Source: Calothrix sp. PCC 7716 (GTDB lineage: Bacteria; Cyanobacteriota; Cyanobacteriia; Cyanobacteriales; Nostocaceae). Taken from it: a DNA stretch of 64,000 bases. Positions 1,297 to 15,007 of this stretch are shown piece by piece. The stretch spans positions 8,312,580-8,376,579 of the forward strand of contig NZ_AP025018.1 of the NCBI RefSeq assembly GCF_019977735.1, written 5' to 3'. The notes beneath the pieces are model-generated. The model was not told the DNA's origin, ran no database searches, and saw only the letters and a program-made list of their open reading frames with translations. Numbering within the stretch: position 1 is the first letter of the stretch; each line of letters begins with the position of its first letter. The translations under genes were made by a program, and so were the position numbers.

Positions 1297-1614
1297 TCAG
1301 CATAAATAGCATTGCTTCATACTGTGTAACTTAATATTTGATATATCTTTCCCTAATAAGCGATGTAGTAAACCAATGGGTACAATTAAGGCGCCACCAA
1401 CTATAACTGGTGGTAATGGTGATAATTTACGCTCTTGTTCGAGTTCGCTTAAACGTTGCTGTAAGCGCATTTGAAGTTCATCCGCGCGTTGACGTGCCTT
1501 TTCTGAGTTTATTTTGGCGTTTGCTTTGCCTGCTGCTTCTTGGGTTTTGAGTTCACTCGCGCGAAAGTCCCAGTAATTTATTTCTTTTGTTAATCTATCT
1601 TTAACAGCTATCAT
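1297..1614 (-). pseudogene. Internal fragment of a large SNF2/HepA-type helicase
   Basis: The 105-residue frame contains LTKEINYWDFRASELKTQE, an Arg/Gln-rich coiled segment and LSPLPPVIVGGALIVPIGLL. From memory this run of motifs occurs deep inside very large SNF2-type helicases (RapA/HepA-like, including the DrmD type of DISARM loci), between the helicase core and the C-terminal DUF3883 part. Here it is isolated, with no helicase motifs before it and no continuation after residue 105. Its ATG overlaps the tnsB stop as ATGA, which imitates an operon but joins two unrelated gene fragments. I read it as a deletion junction. The family assignment is moderately sure, and non-functionality is likely. 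Confidence 0.55.
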
Positions 1615-2637
1615 TGTTCTATTGGTTCTTCTATTTCTACTTGAGCTTCTACAACCTGAATTTTTTGATTGTTATTTTTGTTTTCTTCATGTCTTGTCGG
1701 TGGTGTTTCAACACGCTCTTGTTCGGAACGACGACGTTCTGCTTTAGTTTTATTCTTTTTATTTTTCAAAAAATTCCTGCGCCTAATAGCTTCTTCAAGA
1801 ATTGAAACGTTATTAATTCCTTTACCACTAACCTCAGCTTTTTGACGCGCATACTTAACTTCTTCAATAGAAAGCCTTTCAGATTCCAATCCAATGGCAT
1901 AAGCACGCGCTAAAAATACTTCTTTGTTATTTTTACTACCGTATACCAAGACTAAAGTAATATCTCTGGGGTCATACCTTAAGATAACTTTTTCCCCTGC
2001 GTAAGCTCCTAAATTTTCTCCCCTATAACGAAGACCAGAAAAATTGAGATAGCCATTGTCATATACTACCCGCTCTGTTGCTTTCATCAAGCAAATGTCA
2101 AGTTCTCTTTCGTCTAATAACGCAGGAGGTGACTGTAGACCTTTTTGCCAGCGTTCAATTCGGCTTTGCTTTGAAGGGATTTGCTTGACTTTGAGAATCT
2201 AGTTTTTGATTATAGTTATCAACAATGTATCCTAAAATCAATTTTTCTAACTCTGGAAGTGTTATGCAAGCTTTTTCCTCGGCGCCCTCTGGACGCTCTT
2301 TTATATTTGCCCCTGTAAAACCAGGCATCTCCGAAAGCAACCCACTCATGGTTCTAAAAGGTCTTTCTACAATTCCTCCTTCCGAGGGGTGACTTCTCAG
2401 TATAGGTTCAAAGCCTAACTGGTCAGAAATCCATTCCACTAAATGTTTTGAACGAAAATCTTTACCTCCATCAGTGAAAACATATTTAGCTAAAAATCTT
2501 TCATCCAAAAACTCAACCTCTTTGTCTGACTCATCAAAGTCATAACCATCTTTTAAAACTGAGTCATCATCGTTGAATAACTCATCTTCGTCTAAATCAA
2601 ATGCTTCATCTATATTTGAGTTCCTCATAGATGCCAC
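1611..2637 (-). pseudogene. tnsB: Broken TnsB-like DDE transposase of a Tn7-like/CAST element
   Basis: The piece at 2155-2637 carries an acidic leader and then the catalytic core, with FTDGGKDFRS (second catalytic Asp) and PSEGGIVERPF (catalytic Glu). The piece at 1611-2090 carries the Mu-type C-terminal barrel, with YRGENLGAYAGEKV and LRYDPRDITLVLVY. These match my memory of TnsB from type V-K CRISPR-associated transposons. The two pieces are in different frames. A single-base shift near 2155-2176 separates them, and in-frame TnsB-like sequence (ERELDIC) bridges the gap. The N-terminal DNA-binding domains and the first catalytic Asp are missing, apparently by an in-frame deletion joining the leader directly to the core. 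The protein cannot be an active transposase. Confidence 0.85.
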
Positions 2638-2691
2638 AGATTTTTATTTTTAGTGAGTATATTGATTTTAGTACAAAAAGTCTTTAAAAAA

Positions 2692-2886
2692 TGACACTTA
2701 ATTTTTCGTAATTTTGATTATTGACATTTAATATGTCGCTTTAGGTAGAAACGGACACTCAGCTTGTCGCAATGCTTGACTTTAGGCTTTAAATGCTCTA
2801 AATGAATGAAAAGTATATACCATAAGCTTTTTAAGCTTTTACTACTTTGTGACAATTAATTTGTTTGGTAGACATATAATTTGTCG
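2692..2886. repeat. Five TnsB-box-like 17-bp repeats
   Basis: Units fitting the pattern NGACANNTAATNTGTCG lie at 2692-2708, 2722-2738, 2753-2769, 2850-2866 and 2870-2886. All are in the same orientation. The first three are 30-31 bp apart and the last two are 20 bp apart. Units 2 and 5 are the best preserved, and the others carry one to several changes. Such arrays are bound by TnsB in Tn7-like elements. Confidence 0.8.
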
Positions 2887-3055
2887 CTCTACAAGGGGAC
2901 CCCGCCGACCAACCTTACCGTTACTAAAAAAATTAAATCTCGTAGGTCTGTAGGTATTCTTTAAGCAGGTTTACTTCTTGAGCTTCATCTCTCACCAGAT
3001 AGAGATTTATTTAATACATTTGAATTTATACACAAAGTTTTTAGACTGAATGTAA

Positions 3056-3271: not shown

Positions 3272-3417
3272 GGCGCCTTTTCAATACCTGTAACTGCATC
3301 TCCTACACCTTGATTTGTGTGTTTCAGACTTTATTGGCATTAATTGTGACCAGTTTCTAGCAAAAATTTGTGACTAGTGGTCTGTGTGATTAAATTTGGT
3401 AATAAAAATACATCACT

Positions 3418-4701: not shown

Positions 4702-4751
4702 AGTTTGTGAGTAAAGGTAATAATGAAAGCATTCCAATTTAGAAAAATCAT

Positions 4752-4820
4752 GTCATGCTGAACGTAGTGAAGCATCTGGTTTATATATTAAGACCTTAGA
4801 TTCTTCGCTGCGCTCAGAAT
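4752..4820. repeat. Dispersed imperfect palindrome
   Basis: The sequence TCATGCTGAACGTAGTGAAG is mirrored by GATTCTTCGCTGCGCTCAGA about 40 bp later, giving an imperfect inverted repeat. This type is scattered through many cyanobacterial genomes. It lies immediately beside the minisatellite. Confidence 0.6.
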
Positions 4821-4965
4821 GACAATGGTACGCGACTAATGACAATAGGACGTGGCTAATAACAATGCGACACGATTAATAACAATGCGACACGATTAAT
4901 AACAATGCGACACGACTAATGACAATGCGACACGACTAATGACAATGCGACACGACTAATGACAA
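4821..4965. repeat. 20-bp tandem repeat (minisatellite), seven copies plus 5 bp
   Basis: Seven consecutive 20-bp units (consensus GACAATGCGACACGACTAAT) run in exact register from 4821 to 4960, followed by a partial unit. The first two copies are diverged and copies 3-7 differ by only one or two bases, so recent slippage has expanded the right-hand units. The array lies between the two FG-GAP genes, upstream of the first one. Confidence 0.95.
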
Positions 4966-4997
4966 TTTTTACTTGATTGGACTTTTAAAACATCGTC

Positions 4998-6188
4998 TTA
5001 CGCGGTGTACCAACCAACAGGAGTAGTATTAACTGCGGTGCTGGTGCCATCTCCAGACCAAATCATATTTTCGCCAGTCTGACTATTGCTCCAGAACAGT
5101 TCGGTTTTGCCGTCACCATTAAAGTCACCCAAGCTAGATGTCCACTCAGAACCCATTGATGGTAAAGCTGTTGCAGTTGCAGTGGCGCCAGTCATTGTCC
5201 AACCAACATTTTCGCCAGTAGCTTGATTACGCCATAATACGTCAATGTTTCCATCACCATTTACATCACCAAACGAGTACTTCCAATTAGAACCGGCGCC
5301 TTGTGTTGGTAAATCTGCGGCTGTAGCATTAGTACCACTCATTAACCAGGTTTTGTTTTCACCTGTTCTGCTATTGTGCCAGAAAATATCAGTTCTCATG
5401 TCACCGTTGAAGTCAGTTGCAGAAATTTGCCAATCAGAACCGGCGCCGAAATTTTCTAGTGCAGTGCCACTAGCTAGCTCGGTACCATTCATACTCCACA
5501 AAGAATTTTCACCTGTTGCTGAATTATGCCAAAGTAAATCAGTTTTGCCTGTACCATCAACACTTACAATTGTAGAAGTCCAGTTAGCATCAGTTGTTGG
5601 TAACATTGCAGCAGAAGCAACATTTGTACCATCCATTACCCATGCAGCATTTTCACCCGTACTCTTGTTGTGCCAAATTAAATCGCTCTTACGGTCTCCG
5701 TTTGTATCTCCAACGGTAAAATCCCAATTGCTATCTGTAGTGGGCAACATAGTATCAGCAACTATATTTCCGCCATCCATTACCCAAGCTTCGTTTGCTC
5801 CGGTATTCTTATTACGCCATATCAAGTCAGTTTTACCATCACCGTTGAGGTCCGCAATTTTGTAATCCCATTCAGCACCGCGCGATGGTAGAGCAGCTCC
5901 AGCAGGAGTGGCGCCATCCATCAACCAAATGGCAACTTCACCTGTTTGTGAGTTTCGCCAAATTTTATCAGTCTTACCATCACCGTTAAAATCAGTGTTA
6001 ACAGCTGCACTACTAAAAATTAAGTTGGGATTAGGGTTCAAACCTTGAGATTCAACTGACTGCGATGACCCCTTTAAGGTTGAAACATCATTTGAGTATA
6101 AACTTTGATCAAAACTGTTCGCATTACTTGTATATATCGAAGCACCAGTACCAGTAGAAAGCTCTGTGGATTTTGTTGAATTAAACAT
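4998..6188 (-). CDS. FG-GAP/VCBS seven-repeat protein B
   Basis: This 396-residue paralogue of the neighbouring gene has a Ser/Thr-rich leader of about 65 residues and seven repeats of the form D.NGDGKTD...W.N..TGEN..W.MDG. The segment NPNPNLIFSSAAVNTDFNGDGKTD before repeat 1 is nearly the same in both proteins, so the duplication includes the leader-propeller junction. Several calcium loops are degenerate: repeat 4 reads SVDGTGKTD and repeat 5 DFNGDMRTD. No signal peptide or anchor is visible, so the route to any extracellular place is unclear. The gene ends 32 bp beyond the minisatellite. Confidence 0.85.
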   Translation of the reverse strand: MFNSTKSTELSTGTGASIYTSNANSFDQSLYSNDVSTLKGSSQSVESQGLNPNPNLIFSSAAVNTDFNGDGKTDKIWRNSQTGEVAIWLMDGATPAGAALPSRGAEWDYKIADLNGDGKTDLIWRNKNTGANEAWVMDGGNIVADTMLPTTDSNWDFTVGDTNGDRKSDLIWHNKSTGENAAWVMDGTNVASAAMLPTTDANWTSTIVSVDGTGKTDLLWHNSATGENSLWSMNGTELASGTALENFGAGSDWQISATDFNGDMRTDIFWHNSRTGENKTWLMSGTNATAADLPTQGAGSNWKYSFGDVNGDGNIDVLWRNQATGENVGWTMTGATATATALPSMGSEWTSSLGDFNGDGKTELFWSNSQTGENMIWSGDGTSTAVNTTPVGWYTA

Positions 6189-6534
6189 AGATGAGGATTG
6201 TCAACAGTGTTCATCACCCTTTTTATTATCTATTTACAATTAAAAGTGTTACTTGAGAACTTCCAAACCCTTTTTCGGCTTTTTTGCTTAAATTATATTG
6301 TTTGTCAATAACAATGTTTTAGAAACCAGATTTCTTTATAGATTTTGCAATTAAAACAAAGATTTGTCTGCGACAATGAATGCGTAGAAACCTGGTTTCT
6401 GGTTTATTTTATTCAAATATGTTTACCGATACCAAAGCGTTATTGATAATTCGCTATAGTATTTACATATTTTCTCCGATGACGATTGATTGCAACCGAG
6501 TATAAGATGATTCGTTAAAATCTAAAAAATAATT
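6189..6534. other. Intergenic region with palindromes and one arm of an inverted repeat
   Basis: I see no gene. The region holds AGAAACCAG..TTTCT and AGAAACCTGGTTTCT palindromes near 6321 and 6386. It also holds the left arm (6361-6387) of a 27-bp inverted repeat whose partner is at 6976-7002, on the other side of the next gene. Promoters for the diverging genes at 6188 and 6535 probably lie here, but no clear consensus can be named. Confidence 0.5.
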
Positions 6535-7002
6535 ATGTGGCTTTTAATATTTGTCGTGGTGAATTTTTGTAGTATTTTCGCTGGATTAATAGCAGGTAAA
6601 CAAATTAAAGCTTTTCTTAAAAGACACAAAAGCATTGCCGATGAATATGTCTTAGAAGAATTTAAATCTTTAGTCAGGCGCCAAATGTATATGGTATACT
6701 TTCTATTATTTTTTATAATTATTGGGTTATTTCTGAATATTGTTGTTGTAATTCATCATGGGCTGTTTGGCTTTGCAGTTGCGCTACTTGTAAATGTATA
6801 TAGCTTTTTGCAATCACAATATTTCCGTAGATTAGAAAAAAAAGCAAGGTCTTTAAATGCTGCAAATGAACTTCTTGCACGCAAATATTACCTAGTCAGC
6901 AATACCTGGGCAAATAAACCATTACCAGATTTTTAAAGGACAATGGCTTAGAAATACCATAACCTTGGGCATAATCTACACATTCACTGTCGCAGACAAA
7001 TC
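6361..7002. repeat. 27-bp inverted repeat pair flanking the membrane-protein gene
   Basis: The arms are 6361-6387 (+), starting GATTTGTCTGCGACAATGAA, and 6976-7002, which reads the same way on the minus strand. They match at 25 of 27 positions. The arms enclose only the gene at 6535-6936. They could be the ends of a small mobile cassette, a substrate for inversion, or two copies of a dispersed repeat in opposite orientation. Confidence 0.75.
6535..6936 (+). CDS. Small membrane protein of unknown function (133 aa)
   Basis: The sequence starts with a hydrophobic segment (residues 1-21, MWLLIFVVVNFCSIFAGLIAG). A charged stretch of about 35 residues follows, then hydrophobic stretches at about 53-72 and 76-92, and a basic C-terminal part. 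This predicts an integral inner- or thylakoid-membrane protein with two to three spans. I do not recognise the family. No Shine-Dalgarno sequence is obvious before the ATG. The gene is bracketed by a 27-bp inverted repeat (6361-6387 and 6976-7002), which is unusual for a single gene and may mean it moved or was inverted as a unit. Confidence 0.65.
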   Translation: MWLLIFVVVNFCSIFAGLIAGKQIKAFLKRHKSIADEYVLEEFKSLVRRQMYMVYFLLFFIIIGLFLNIVVVIHHGLFGFAVALLVNVYSFLQSQYFRRLEKKARSLNAANELLARKYYLVSNTWANKPLPDF

Positions 7003-7194
7003 GTCATTTTATTACATGTTATCAACGTATATTCCAGGTTTCTAGGTTTTCATGCGTAAGTCCTGATATCTATGAATTATGCATAAATTATTAATCGAAA
7101 ACAATCTTAAATTAAGTACTTAGCAAAAACAACGTATAAATTATTGCATGTATATTTTGTTTGATAACTGCCACTAAGACATCTGTAAAACCCT
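7003..7194. other. Gene-free stretch
   Basis: AT-rich and non-coding, with a CCAGGTTTCTAGGTTT palindrome fragment near 7035. I see nothing else recognisable. Confidence 0.4.
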
Positions 7195-7198
7195 CTAC

Positions 7199-7322
7199 CT
7201 CACCGGAATGCAGCAGGCTTAGAAACCTGGCAACAGTCACAAAAATTTCGCTATAAACCCCTAATTTATCCTTCATATGCCCGGTTTGTTTTGGCTTGTT
7301 GATAATGCTGCATTCCGGTGAG
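7199..7322. mobile_element. MITE-like element, 124 bp, with 4-bp target duplication
   Basis: Perfect 17-bp terminal inverted repeats lie at 7199-7215 (CTCACCGGAATGCAGCA) and 7306-7322. They are directly flanked by CTAC on both sides (7195-7198 and 7323-7326). The interior of about 90 bp has no reading frame. Terminal repeats plus an exact target-site duplication are the signature of a non-autonomous DNA transposon. The ends differ in sequence from the complete IS at 16949-18362, although both start CTCA and both leave 4-bp duplications. Confidence 0.85.
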
Positions 7323-7326
7323 CTAC

Positions 7327-7673
7327 GAACTAGTACACGATGCCGGAAATAACCAAAATATAGGCGCCTTCACTAAATGTTGCATTTATATCATCATGTA
7401 AAGAAATGTAACAAGCTATTACGATGGCTTCGACAAATATGGTACAAAGTAAATGTAAAAATAAAGAAAATCTTAAGTTTTTCTACAAATCTAAAAAATA
7501 GATTTATCGAATAGCTCAAAGCAGGGTCGTCAATGATGGCTTAGTGCTGTATGTGCTGACATATAGTACAGATGCATTGAACAATTAGTTGTAAGTAATC
7601 ATAAATGAAATTCTGTTTAGTTCCCTGTTTGAGAACATCAAAATTAAGGACTCAGTGAAGAGTAAAGGTAGCT
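7327..7673. other. Gene-free region upstream of the LysR-type regulator
   Basis: There is no protein-like frame on either strand. It presumably contains the promoter of the regulator at 7674, but no convincing -35/-10 pair or LysR-type palindrome stood out. One GGCGCC lies at about 7363. Confidence 0.35.
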
Positions 7674-8660
7674 ATGCGACAAGAATTAATGCTAGACCAA
7701 GCAACGTTATATCAGCTAAAAATTTTTTATACAGTTGTCAAATTTGGAAGCTTTACTCGTGCAGGTCAAGAGCTTTTTCTCTCTCAACCCGCAGTTTGTA
7801 TGCAGGTGAAAAAATTAGCTCAAGTACTTGGTTTGTCGTTATTTGATAAGCTAGGTAAAAATATCAGTCCGAGTATAGCTGGACAGGAATTAATAGCAAC
7901 ATGCGATAAAATCTTCAATACGATGGATAAGTTTGAAGATAAGTTAGCTGATTTACAGACTTTGAAGCAAGGTACACTAAGACTCTCAGGACTAACTACA
8001 GCTAAGTATATTATTCCGTTGACTTTAGGAGAATTCAGTCAGCGTTATCCAGATATAGATGTTTCGCTAAAATTGGCAAATCATAGTGGGATTGCCGAAC
8101 GGATGATGAAAAATTTAGACGACTTATATATAGTTAGTGAAATTCCCAAGTTTATCGATGTTGAAAGTTTTCCATTTTTCCGAGATGAGTTGGTTGTTGT
8201 AGCTTGCTCTCGTCACCCATTAGCTAGAGAAAAGAAGATTTCGATTCATCAACTTGCGAACGAAGCTTTTATCATGCGTGAAATCGGCTCTTTAACTCGA
8301 AATCAGGTACAAAACATCCTCCTTAAGTATGATGTCAAAGTACGAGTTAAAATGGAATCGAACAATGATGAAATGATTAAGTCTTTTGTAGCTGATGGTT
8401 TAGGTATTTCGGTTCTGCCACGTCAGTGCATAATTTCAAATCCGGACAATGAATTAACAATTCTTAATGTCGAACATTTCCCAATCTGGCGCCAGTGGTA
8501 TATGGTATATCCAGCCAAAAAGCATTTGTCTGCGCTTGCGAAAACTTATTTACAGTATTTACTCGAAATATCAGTAGGTTGCTCAGAGGTTGAAATGAGT
8601 AACTGTCGATTAATCTCAAATTACACAGTACACAGCTACAACTACTGTATTGCAGCTTAA
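7674..8660 (+). CDS. LysR-family transcriptional regulator (CmpR/RbcR-like)
   Basis: The N-terminal winged helix reads LDQATLYQLKIFYTVVKFGS, then the recognition segment QELFLSQPAVCMQVKKLAQV and LGKNISPSIAGQEL, the LysR layout at residues 6-70. The rest (about 95-300) is the periplasmic-binding-like effector domain. In cyanobacteria the most similar proteins as I remember them are CmpR/RbcR/NdhR-type regulators of carbon uptake and fixation, but carbon genes are not next to it. AAAGG precedes the ATG by a short spacer. The divergent neighbour is a MITE-bearing region, so the target genes cannot be read from context. Length (328 aa) is normal. Confidence 0.9.
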   Translation: MRQELMLDQATLYQLKIFYTVVKFGSFTRAGQELFLSQPAVCMQVKKLAQVLGLSLFDKLGKNISPSIAGQELIATCDKIFNTMDKFEDKLADLQTLKQGTLRLSGLTTAKYIIPLTLGEFSQRYPDIDVSLKLANHSGIAERMMKNLDDLYIVSEIPKFIDVESFPFFRDELVVVACSRHPLAREKKISIHQLANEAFIMREIGSLTRNQVQNILLKYDVKVRVKMESNNDEMIKSFVADGLGISVLPRQCIISNPDNELTILNVEHFPIWRQWYMVYPAKKHLSALAKTYLQYLLEISVGCSEVEMSNCRLISNYTVHSYNYCIAA

Positions 8661-8834
8661 AATTCTAGAAACCCTAGAAACCAGGTTTCTTCTGGTTCTT
8701 TCTAAATAATACTCAGTATTTCAGTGCCATTCGTTGATTGGCATATTTTTTTTATAATTAAACACAAATAAAGCAACATTTTTATAACTACTAGCGTCTA
8801 ATGGGGGGTGTTACCCCTATTTGGCTAGAGTAAA
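8661..8834. promoter_or_regulatory. Leader with palindrome and G/C hairpin before the exported-protein gene
   Basis: An AGAAACCAGGTTTCT palindrome lies near 8678. A short GGGG/CCCC hairpin lies at 8805-8817, ending 17 bp before the ATG at 8835. The hairpin may influence translation initiation, and no function is shown. Confidence 0.3.
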
Positions 8835-9620
8835 ATGCGATTCAAAAAAGCATACGTATTTATAGCAGTAGCGACAATGCTACTGAGTTTTTGTTGTGGC
8901 ATAAAAACAGTACAAGCAACAGGTCCAATCAATTCAGTTACGACAATCATTAGCGATATGCAAGCACCACAAGACGCTTATCCACATGGAGTACCCAAAC
9001 ATTACAGTTGGGCAAATGGTGCAGAAATTGGTATGGGTAATGACCCCAAAAATTTTAAAGCCATGATGACATGGGGGCAGCTATACGAAGCAGAACAAGG
9101 TAATCCTGCCACTAACACGCGCGTTCAAATACGAAACATCAAAGCTTATTACCTAAGTAAACAAGATAACCAATGGCGCCTGCTGCAAAGTTCAAAAGGA
9201 GTAGAAGGAGCAGCATATCGTGAAGATTTTGCAGGAGATGCAAATAAACCGGCAGATGTTCGTAGTGAATCTGATGGTACTATTTCAGCAAAAGCCGGAG
9301 GAGGACATAACTATCATTTCTGGACTACTGGTGGTCGAGCTTCAATTAATCCGAATGATATCGGTGGTATTTTTACCACTGTAGAAGCAAGACTAATTCT
9401 TGATGACCCAAATAAACCCGATGACCGCGAGACTGCACGTTATCTATTAAATGTTGGTGGAGACTACTGGCTTGACTTGAGTGCTGGTTGGGATAACTTT
9501 AAAACGAATGGCGGAATCGCCACAGGCAGATTCAAATACGTCACAACCGACTGGCAAGCTTTCAACATGACAACCTTACCAGCAGCCCAAATTAGTACAA
9601 ATCCACCACCAGTTGAATAG
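8835..9620 (+). CDS. Exported protein of unknown family, paralogue 1 (261 aa)
   Basis: A typical Sec signal peptide is present: MRFKK, hydrophobic core AYVFIAVATMLLSFCCG, with cleavage likely after TVQA or VQAT near residue 29. The mature part contains conserved blocks also found in the next gene: SVTTIISDM, GVPKHYSWA, AMMTWGQLYEAEQGNP, NTRVQIRN, GAAYREDFAGD, INPNDIGGIFTT, GGDYWLDL, WDNFKTNGGI and WQAFNMTT. I do not recognise the family. Many aromatic and Gly-Gly-Asp motifs suggest a beta-rich extracytoplasmic protein. A terminator-like hairpin follows at 9629-9649. A duplicated exported protein next to a DUF4336 gene suggests a cell-envelope role, but that is inference. Confidence 0.75.
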   Translation: MRFKKAYVFIAVATMLLSFCCGIKTVQATGPINSVTTIISDMQAPQDAYPHGVPKHYSWANGAEIGMGNDPKNFKAMMTWGQLYEAEQGNPATNTRVQIRNIKAYYLSKQDNQWRLLQSSKGVEGAAYREDFAGDANKPADVRSESDGTISAKAGGGHNYHFWTTGGRASINPNDIGGIFTTVEARLILDDPNKPDDRETARYLLNVGGDYWLDLSAGWDNFKTNGGIATGRFKYVTTDWQAFNMTTLPAAQISTNPPPVE

Positions 9621-13613: not shown

Positions 13614-14669
13614 ATGCATTTGAATTCTTTAGGCTGGAGTGACTTTTTTAATTCCAGCTTTGAACCCTTTCGTCTACAAGGATTTACAGTAGGTAGGGTA
13701 GCAATTGAGCATACAAATACTTACATCGTTCTAACAGAACAGGGAGAAGTATTAGCACAAATAACAGGTAAACTGCGACATCAAGCTTTACAACGTCAAG
13801 ACTTTCCAGCAGTGGGAGATTGGGTAGTTATTCGTGTGCGAGACTCAGAACAAGCAACCATTCACGCAATATTGCCAAGATTTAGCAAATTTTCTCGTAA
13901 AACCGTTGGAGGCAAAACCGACGAACAAATAGTTGCAGCGAACGTTGATACTGTTTTTTTAGTATCTGGGTTGGATGGAGACTTTAATATTAGAAGAGTC
14001 GAACGTTATTTAATTCTTGCTTGGGAAAGTGGCGCCAACCCGGTTATAGTTTTAAACAAAACAGATTTGTGCAATAACCTTGAACAGCGTTTAGTAGAAA
14101 TAGAATCTGTTGCTCTGGGTGTGCCAATACTTGTTTTAAGTGCGGCACATAATCAAGGAATTGATGCTTTAAAACCCTATTTACAACCAGGTAAAACTGT
14201 TGCACTGCTTGGGTCTTCAGGTGTGGGTAAATCTACTATTAGCAATCAACTAATGGGTGAAACAGTTCAAGCTGTACAATCTGTACGTCAGGATGATAGT
14301 AGAGGAAGGCACACCACAACTCATCGAGAGTTAATATTACTACCAACAGGAGGCTTAATAATAGATACCCCAGGAATGCGGGAAATACAGTTGTGGACAG
14401 GTGATGAAGGTTTACAGTCTACATTTGCTGACATTGAAATTATCGCGCAACAGTGCCGCTTCCGTAATTGTCAACACGCTCATGAACCCGGTTGTGCTGT
14501 ACAGGAAGCTTTGCAGTCAGGTAAACTTGAGGCGCCGAGGTTTTTGAGTTATCAAAAGTTACAGAGGGAGCTTGGTTATTTGGAGCGAAAACAAGACCAA
14601 AGCTCGTATTTAGCAGAAAAAGAACGGTGGAAAAAAATTACTAAATCTATGCGAAAGCATAAAAAGTGA
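13614..14669 (+). CDS. rsgA: Ribosome small subunit-dependent GTPase A
   Basis: This is a circularly permuted GTPase. An N-terminal OB-fold part (about residues 30-95, ending GDWVVIRV) is followed by G4 NKTDL, then G1 GSSGVGKST, a switch region with [10 protein letters not shown], and G3 DTPGMRE. The C-terminal zinc-binding helix part has C, C-x-H and C ligands in [14 protein letters not shown]. RsgA assists late maturation of the 30S subunit and releases when GTP is hydrolysed. The 351-residue length is normal. GAGG precedes the ATG by about 9 bp. Upstream lies a possible leader peptide with an inverted repeat, which may regulate it. Confidence 0.95.
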
Positions 14670-14691
14670 TTTTTTGGCATGGGAAATAAAT

Positions 14692-14752
14692 GGTACGTAA
14701 CGCTACGGAGTTATTGGCTTCGTTTCAAAGTTGTTGATAGCGTTACGCACCC
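14692..14752. repeat. Imperfect inverted repeat after rsgA
   Basis: GGTACGTAACGCTA (14692-14705) is mirrored by TAGCGTTACGCACC (14738-14751). The pair lies downstream of rsgA and at the truncated 3' end of the PIN-toxin pseudogene. The repeat is probably a dispersed element that replaced the toxin C-terminus. Confidence 0.6.
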
Positions 14753-14762
14753 TACATTCTTT

Positions 14763-15007
14763 AAGGCGCCCAAGTTTCGCACTTGAGACATAAATTCCGT
14801 AGTTTCCCAGAGCTTGGTATAAAGTTGAGTAATTTTTTGTGCTTGGGCAGGGTTATTCAATCTTCCAACTCAACCGTTAAATAATTCTTGGACAGTAACT
14901 ACGGTAATTGCAACATTTTTAGAATATTTGTCAACTTGGGCAGTTATTGATTTGTTTCCTGCTAAAAACAGCGACGCATGGTCAGTATCAAGAATCCATA
15001 AACTCAT
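14763..15007 (-). pseudogene. VapC/PIN-domain toxin, inactivated
   Basis: The minus-strand frame starts at 15007 (MSLWILDTDHASLFLAGN), a PIN-domain opening with the first catalytic Asp. It continues through VAITVVTVQELFNG to a TGA at 14870-14872, in a place where relatives have Trp. Past the stop the same frame continues as VGRLNNPAQ...QLYTKLWETTEF before homology ends in a dispersed repeat. It therefore carries a nonsense mutation and also lacks its C-terminal third. Its start overlaps the antitoxin stop as ATGA, the usual arrangement of such pairs. Confidence 0.8.

Follow-up and report, generated by a model that had tools for sequence, protein, structure and literature searches.

Type V-K CRISPR-associated transposons (CASTs) have a conserved layout in which tnsB, tnsC and tniQ adjoin the right end and a tRNA and the CRISPR array lie at the left end, as described in the available text of PMC9938897, which also already mentions cas12k genes "or a degenerated version". 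For the reference type V-K CAST, ShCAST (Tn7747), the available part of PMC9527255 gives five TnsB sites at the right end; at the left end three were expected and four bands were seen. Here, we describe a locus in a 64-kb window (the whole stretch of DNA analyzed) of Calothrix sp. PCC 7716, which we consider, with a probability of about 0.92, to be what is left of a now inactive type V-K CAST: its right end with five TnsB sites, and two pieces of tnsB. The relic shares with ShCAST the homology of TnsB, the five right-end TnsB sites, and a tnsB facing away from the end, but only parts of TnsB are matched and every other component is missing. When whole, the element would have had its boxes bound by TnsB, which, together with TnsC, TniQ, and a Cas12k-guide RNA complex, would have joined the end to host DNA. 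Positions to the left of the window start are given as negative numbers.

The right end occupies positions 2693 to 2893 (minus strand); read inward along that strand, the sequence at its 2893 terminus is TGTAGAGCGACAAATTA. Among three relatives compared, TGTAGAGCGACAAATTA was letter-identical in L034 and L036 (Nostoc T09) and showed one mismatch in L035 (Nostoc WHI). Five 17-bp units start at plus-strand positions 2693, 2723, 2754, 2851, and 2871, and they were scored with a 16-position matrix trained on 15 boxes from the tnsB-side ends of L034, L035, and L036, with the window excluded from training. The scores were 21.7, 21.1, 11.0, 13.0, and 24.2, respectively, and the highest background scores were 13.5 (rest of the 64-kb window) and 16.5 (60 kb upstream); three boxes are far above background, while two (11.0 and 13.0) are recognizable by place and spacing alone. 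The spacing between box starts was 20, 97, 31, and 30, compared with 21, 96, 31, and 30 in the Nostoc WHI element (L035's element, L144). Chance occurrence of the boxes was ruled out by the scores of this relatives-only matrix and by the spacing. Judged by sequence, the five units are TnsB boxes and 2893 is the terminus, as in the relatives. Two features of V-K membership were thus found at this end: an array of TnsB sites with a TGT...ACA terminus, and an adjoining TnsB of the V-K kind transcribed away from it. A sequence-only reading of this DNA had proposed five 17-bp units running to 2893 beside a decayed tnsB of the type V-K CAST family; the units and the decayed gene were borne out by the sequence, the relatives' matrix, and the terminus, and the family by the TnsB matches, the tree, the boxes, and the terminus. 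The same reading had called this the left end, which was wrong: it is the right end, because the published naming places tnsB on the right side (PMC9938897) and because five TnsB sites fit the count at the ShCAST right end (PMC9527255), as far as the available portions of both sources describe it.

Two tnsB open reading frames (ORFs) lie in different frames of the minus strand (2637–2155 and 2090–1611). The first remnant (2155–2637, minus strand) consists of N-terminal codons fused in frame to a later part of the catalytic domain; the fusion point is at approximately 2490–2492, with native N-terminal codons before it and the motifs TDGGKDFRS and GGIVERP after it. Alignment to L036 of Nostoc T09 showed that the in-frame loss inside tnsB amounts to approximately 0.87 kb and ends near 2490. 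A small frameshifting deletion near 2174 puts the second remnant (1611–2174, minus strand), the C-terminal part with Mu-transpos_C, into another frame, and the 3' end of the gene is cut at 1611–1614 with its last residues gone. In ShTnsB, the catalytic residues are D205, D287, and E321 and the ends are recognized by NTD1/2, according to the part of PMC9527255 available; by position, the 0.87-kb loss would have taken the DNA-binding domains and the first catalytic Asp. The relic is almost certainly immobile now, because its TnsB would lack these domains and one catalytic Asp and because no left end was found.

Among solved structures, the best match of both TnsB pieces was ShCAST TnsB, with residues 282–380 matched by the first piece (E = 6.6e-31) and 410–554 by the second (E = 2.2e-30). 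Membership in the type I-F CASTs was ruled out, since Tn6677 TnsB reached an E-value of 0.049 with the first piece, as against 6.6e-31 for ShCAST TnsB; it was absent among the matches listed for the second piece. Searches of the first remnant against Pfam and NCBIfam gave sub-threshold matches only. Intact copies of tnsB are present in the relatives Nostoc WHI, N. foliaceum FACHB-393, and Nostoc T09. That the remnant is still useful, as a non-autonomous end or as a short regulatory TnsB fragment under selection, would agree with the three of five boxes that score above 21 and with the open frame of 160 codons in the first remnant. However, two boxes have decayed (11.0 and 13.0), the DNA-binding domains are gone by position, and neither a convincing partner end nor a V-K transposase was found in the genome, so that we regard continued use as extremely improbable.

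TnsB comparison with the closest relatives revealed 84% identity to Calothrix NIES-4105 plasmid1, 79% to Nostoc T09, 78% each to N. foliaceum FACHB-393 and Nostoc WHI, and 68% each to Nodosilinea WJT8-NPBG4 and Leptolyngbya FACHB-60. Phylogenetic analysis placed the relic in a seven-row TnsB clade (SH-aLRT 100) containing a nested five-row group (support 95), in a quick tree with a single, very long outgroup branch and with ShCAST itself left out; because their alignments were short, nine of the 82 loci were excluded, of which one (L033) was put back. Of the other six rows in the clade, three are accompanied by Cas12k on the same contig (one copy whole, two broken), the Cas12k labels having been gathered unevenly (from flanks of up to 10 kb, plus a genome-wide Cas12k search for three loci). 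Cas12k was present in five of the eight genomes searched, which may be seven, as two of them (G381 and G391) have equal coordinates and seem to be one genome. It shares a contig with a tnsC of this kind in Nostoc WHI (two pieces), NIES-4105 (a fragment), and FACHB-60 (whole), and lies on contigs other than that of tnsC in FACHB-393.

Among the top 50 TnsB relatives in the taxonomic order (the first 50 TnsB rows below the relic's own, compared with part of the Cas12k rows), at least 33 showed a same-strand Cas12k less than 45 kb downstream; this is a lower bound, at most three Cas12k candidates having been scored for most genomes, and some of the pairings may join neighboring elements (e.g., two rows of G169). 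Forty-nine of the 50 rows sit in genomes with some Cas12k row, and the exception is Nostoc T09 (G381), the nearest relative in the sample. In Nostoc T09 (G391/G381), tnsB, tnsC, and tniQ are whole (L036, 8957–12272) and no Cas12k match was found in the genome; its contig stops approximately 2 kb after tniQ. Nostoc T09 may accordingly represent either a contig gap or a guide-less element. Because this close relative has no Cas12k found, the ancestor of the relic could already have lost its guide system. A Tn7-like ancestor of this TnsB clade that had a TniQ of its own but neither Cas12k nor a guide RNA system is the reading that Nostoc T09 favors; we consider it very unlikely, given that half of the other clade rows carry Cas12k on the same contig and that the T09 contig ends where a Cas12k gene might have been missed. 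The type V-K relic is the reading we retain, and its V-K identity is one of kinship, since the genome searches yielded no Cas12k, CRISPR array, V-K tniQ, or tnsC.

The element with the closest TnsB, the V-K CAST of NIES-4105 plasmid1 (AP018291.1, approximately 228–249 kb), is also decayed. It showed 84% identity over the catalytic part of TnsB and 86% DNA identity over window positions 1614–2489, and it has tnsC downstream of tnsB and, at its far end, a C-terminal fragment of Cas12k together with CRISPR repeats and a tracrRNA-like region, both read by eye. Unlike the relic, it lies on a plasmid and lacks the tnsB start and a recognizable right end; arsenic-related genes lie in between, whereas the relic keeps its right end and has lost the rest. 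The elements of Nostoc WHI, N. foliaceum FACHB-393, and Nostoc T09 resemble the relic in terminus, box layout, N-terminal extension of tnsB, and reading direction, but they encode a 653–655-aa TnsB, a 268-aa TnsC, and a 169-aa TniQ, and among the three only WHI has Cas12k, in pieces, on the same contig. Two observations were made by eye in these relatives. In the NIES-4105 plasmid (L145, approximately 14250–15000), a spacer from the array of the decayed V-K element seems to match sequence just outside that element's own left end. In Nostoc WHI (L143, approximately 680–740, and L144, approximately 3365–3410), some 40 bp within the left end resemble, in reverse complement, the host DNA that borders the right end of the same element.

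The sequence-only reading had also hoped for a sister copy elsewhere in the genome, and none was found. Searches of the 12.4-Mb genome revealed no second close tnsB of the V-K kind, and neither tnsC nor Cas12k (NF038191) had a match in the whole genome. With the left-end, CRISPR, and tracrRNA region of Nostoc WHI as query, no tracrRNA or CRISPR array was matched genome-wide, the two hits obtained both falling in tRNA-side letters. No convincing second end was found genome-wide, where one match with three mismatches compares with one control match. An active sister copy was ruled out by these searches. As no cas12k, tracrRNA, or array was matched, the locus is therefore the relic of a V-K element and not a working member. 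The tnsC and tniQ genes were probably lost by deletion, because tnsB is cut at 1611–1614. When the TniQ of L034 was compared with the 124 kb surrounding the relic, nothing matched. The four TniQ matches in the genome are at other places, in frames of 524–840 aa, and three of these neighbor the three distant TnsB-like genes (32% identity), which we take for parts of other Tn7-like elements. These TniQ and TnsB-like genes are located at C1:6477652-6480952, C1:6919808-6923108, and C3:109189-110535, and the first two look like copies of each other, with equal scores and frames.

Comparison of the host side of the junction with seven same-genus genomes, including that of PCC 7716, showed that the DNA match to the window begins exactly at 2894 in at least three of the six others, namely G353 (Calothrix FI2-JRJ7), G394, and G395, and spans 2894 to 2946 at 96%. 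The host flank (2894–2927, plus strand) holds the final GDPADQPYRY-stop codons of a 194-codon gene. The gene is intact in G353, G394, and G395, where the bases before the match continue it, giving the empty site. In G380, homology restarts only at 2945 and the 194-codon gene is not there. Because the sister matches start at 2894, the terminus at 2893 is base-exact by comparison and not by motif alone.

If the insertion was simple, the AGGGG that opens the flank would represent the 5-bp target duplication. A single copy of AGGGGTGT is present in the 62.9 kb searched to the left, at a distance of 54.9 kb, and no box was detected there with the matrix; neither a partner left end nor a left duplication was found in the 60 kb upstream. 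The terminus proposed earlier at 2893 stands; for the AGGGG duplication that was to be looked for, no partner copy or partner end was found. In one route to the V-K relic, which we hold to be quite possible, if short of an even chance, the element entered the 194-codon gene directly at its 3' end and duplicated 5 bp, and separate later deletions removed the left end, the upstream part of the gene, and the host genes back to a tRNA-Lys. In favor of this route, the junction of right end and gene is exact to the base, as it would be after any insertion. Under this route, however, the deletions must have stopped close to the old 3' end of the tRNA, and the Hma remnants found there must have been imported or spared. 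In addition, the distance range given for the GTN PAM in the available text of PMC9938897 is 46–82 nt, with one case at 147 nt, and in none of the three sister genomes does the left-end side of the junction have a GTN at 46–82 nt, the nearest being at 28 and 94 nt. As far as the sequence allows, the missing GTN speaks against an ordinary guided insertion at the exact junction point, although it does not prove the alternative discussed below.

On the left side, the cut tnsB is joined directly to a fragment of an HmaA-type SNF2 helicase (1297–1614, minus strand) from the Hma defense system. A 105-aa ORF that starts at the tnsB/HmaA junction is probably not a gene; its candidacy as a transposon gene following tnsB was ruled out, as it is an internal piece of the HmaA helicase. 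Two ORFs between -1756 and -261 match HmaC, and the HmaA and HmaC pieces lie on the minus strand like tnsB. A locus on the NIES-4105 chromosome matches parts of 349–1624 and preserves their order. A tRNA scan of the 64-kb window found none; further left, a copy of the 3' part of a tRNA-Lys lies at -1933 to -1886 and the whole tRNA-Lys at -21296 to -21224. The interval between the whole tRNA-Lys and its partial 3' copy (-21296 to -1886) is a tRNA-integrated island next to the CAST relic, and it encodes a probable tyrosine integrase (Arm-DNA-bind_2 match, catalytic motif read by eye). The right end of the relic faces away from the tRNA-Lys on its left, which is the canonical orientation. The element may once have adjoined the tRNA-Lys to its left, with the Hma defense system as cargo.

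The sister genomes bear on this arrangement. In G353, G394, and G395, the interval from the tRNA-Lys to the 194-codon gene is filled with largely shared host genes, part of which are also shared by G380; in G394, they include ORFs of 212, 546, 149, 266, and 183 aa. G395 additionally carries a decayed V-K element of approximately 4.3 kb directly after the 3' end of the tRNA-Lys (L180, approximately 4966–9240), with an 86-aa C-terminal piece of Cas12k (64%) and CRISPR repeats read by eye. Box-like repeats near both of its ends scored 12.8–13.4, no better than background elsewhere, so its identification rests on the Cas12k piece and the repeats read by eye. No anchor spacer was found in it with exact tRNA words of 12, 14, and 17 nt. 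Because this element sits directly after it, the tRNA-Lys is probably a V-K site in Calothrix.

A second route to the V-K relic is adjacent deletion, in which an element at the tRNA-Lys used its right end to attack the 194-codon gene, at a distance of a few kb, by intramolecular, replicative transposition; the intervening host genes would have been deleted, and the rest of the element would then have decayed. The side on which the relic lies, its exact junction, its canonical orientation relative to the tRNA-Lys, and the G395 element after the same tRNA, with GTN at 54 and 69 nt from its left end, are consistent with such an event, as is the finding that the host genes between the tRNA-Lys and the junction, largely common to the sisters, had no match in the 124 kb of the PCC 7716 genome examined. 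V-K elements are also without TnsA, and ShCAST cointegrates have been shown in E. coli (PMC11406308, available part). Against this, the DNA following the old tRNA 3' end at -1886 retains no left end (highest matrix score, 9.4), the G395 boxes score no higher than background, and ordinary deletions would yield the same picture, the host-gene search having covered 124 kb of the genome. We regard adjacent deletion as a possibility that falls short of an even chance, slightly below direct insertion.

In kind, the relic is ordinary, being one more dead V-K element of a well-described cyanobacterial group, and it is valuable chiefly as a scar marking where a V-K element once joined the chromosome. 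The V-K CAST right end is genuine and dead, and its junction is modestly interesting. What is notable is that within one genus and near one tRNA-Lys, G395 has a decayed V-K element directly at the tRNA, and here a lone right end is joined to a gene a few kb away. If adjacent deletion did occur, the cost of lacking TnsA would be written in the chromosome of a natural cyanobacterial host. The word "intramolecular" does not occur in the available text of PMC11406308, and, among the papers listed, no report of adjacent deletions by V-K elements was recognized from titles or the opening lines of abstracts, which is not proof of absence. Further right-end-only junctions with missing host DNA would let genomes alone test the question. 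To the right of the junction, positions 4750–4826 of the window contain an interspersed repeat (approximately 77 bp) that recurs dozens of times across this and same-genus genomes.
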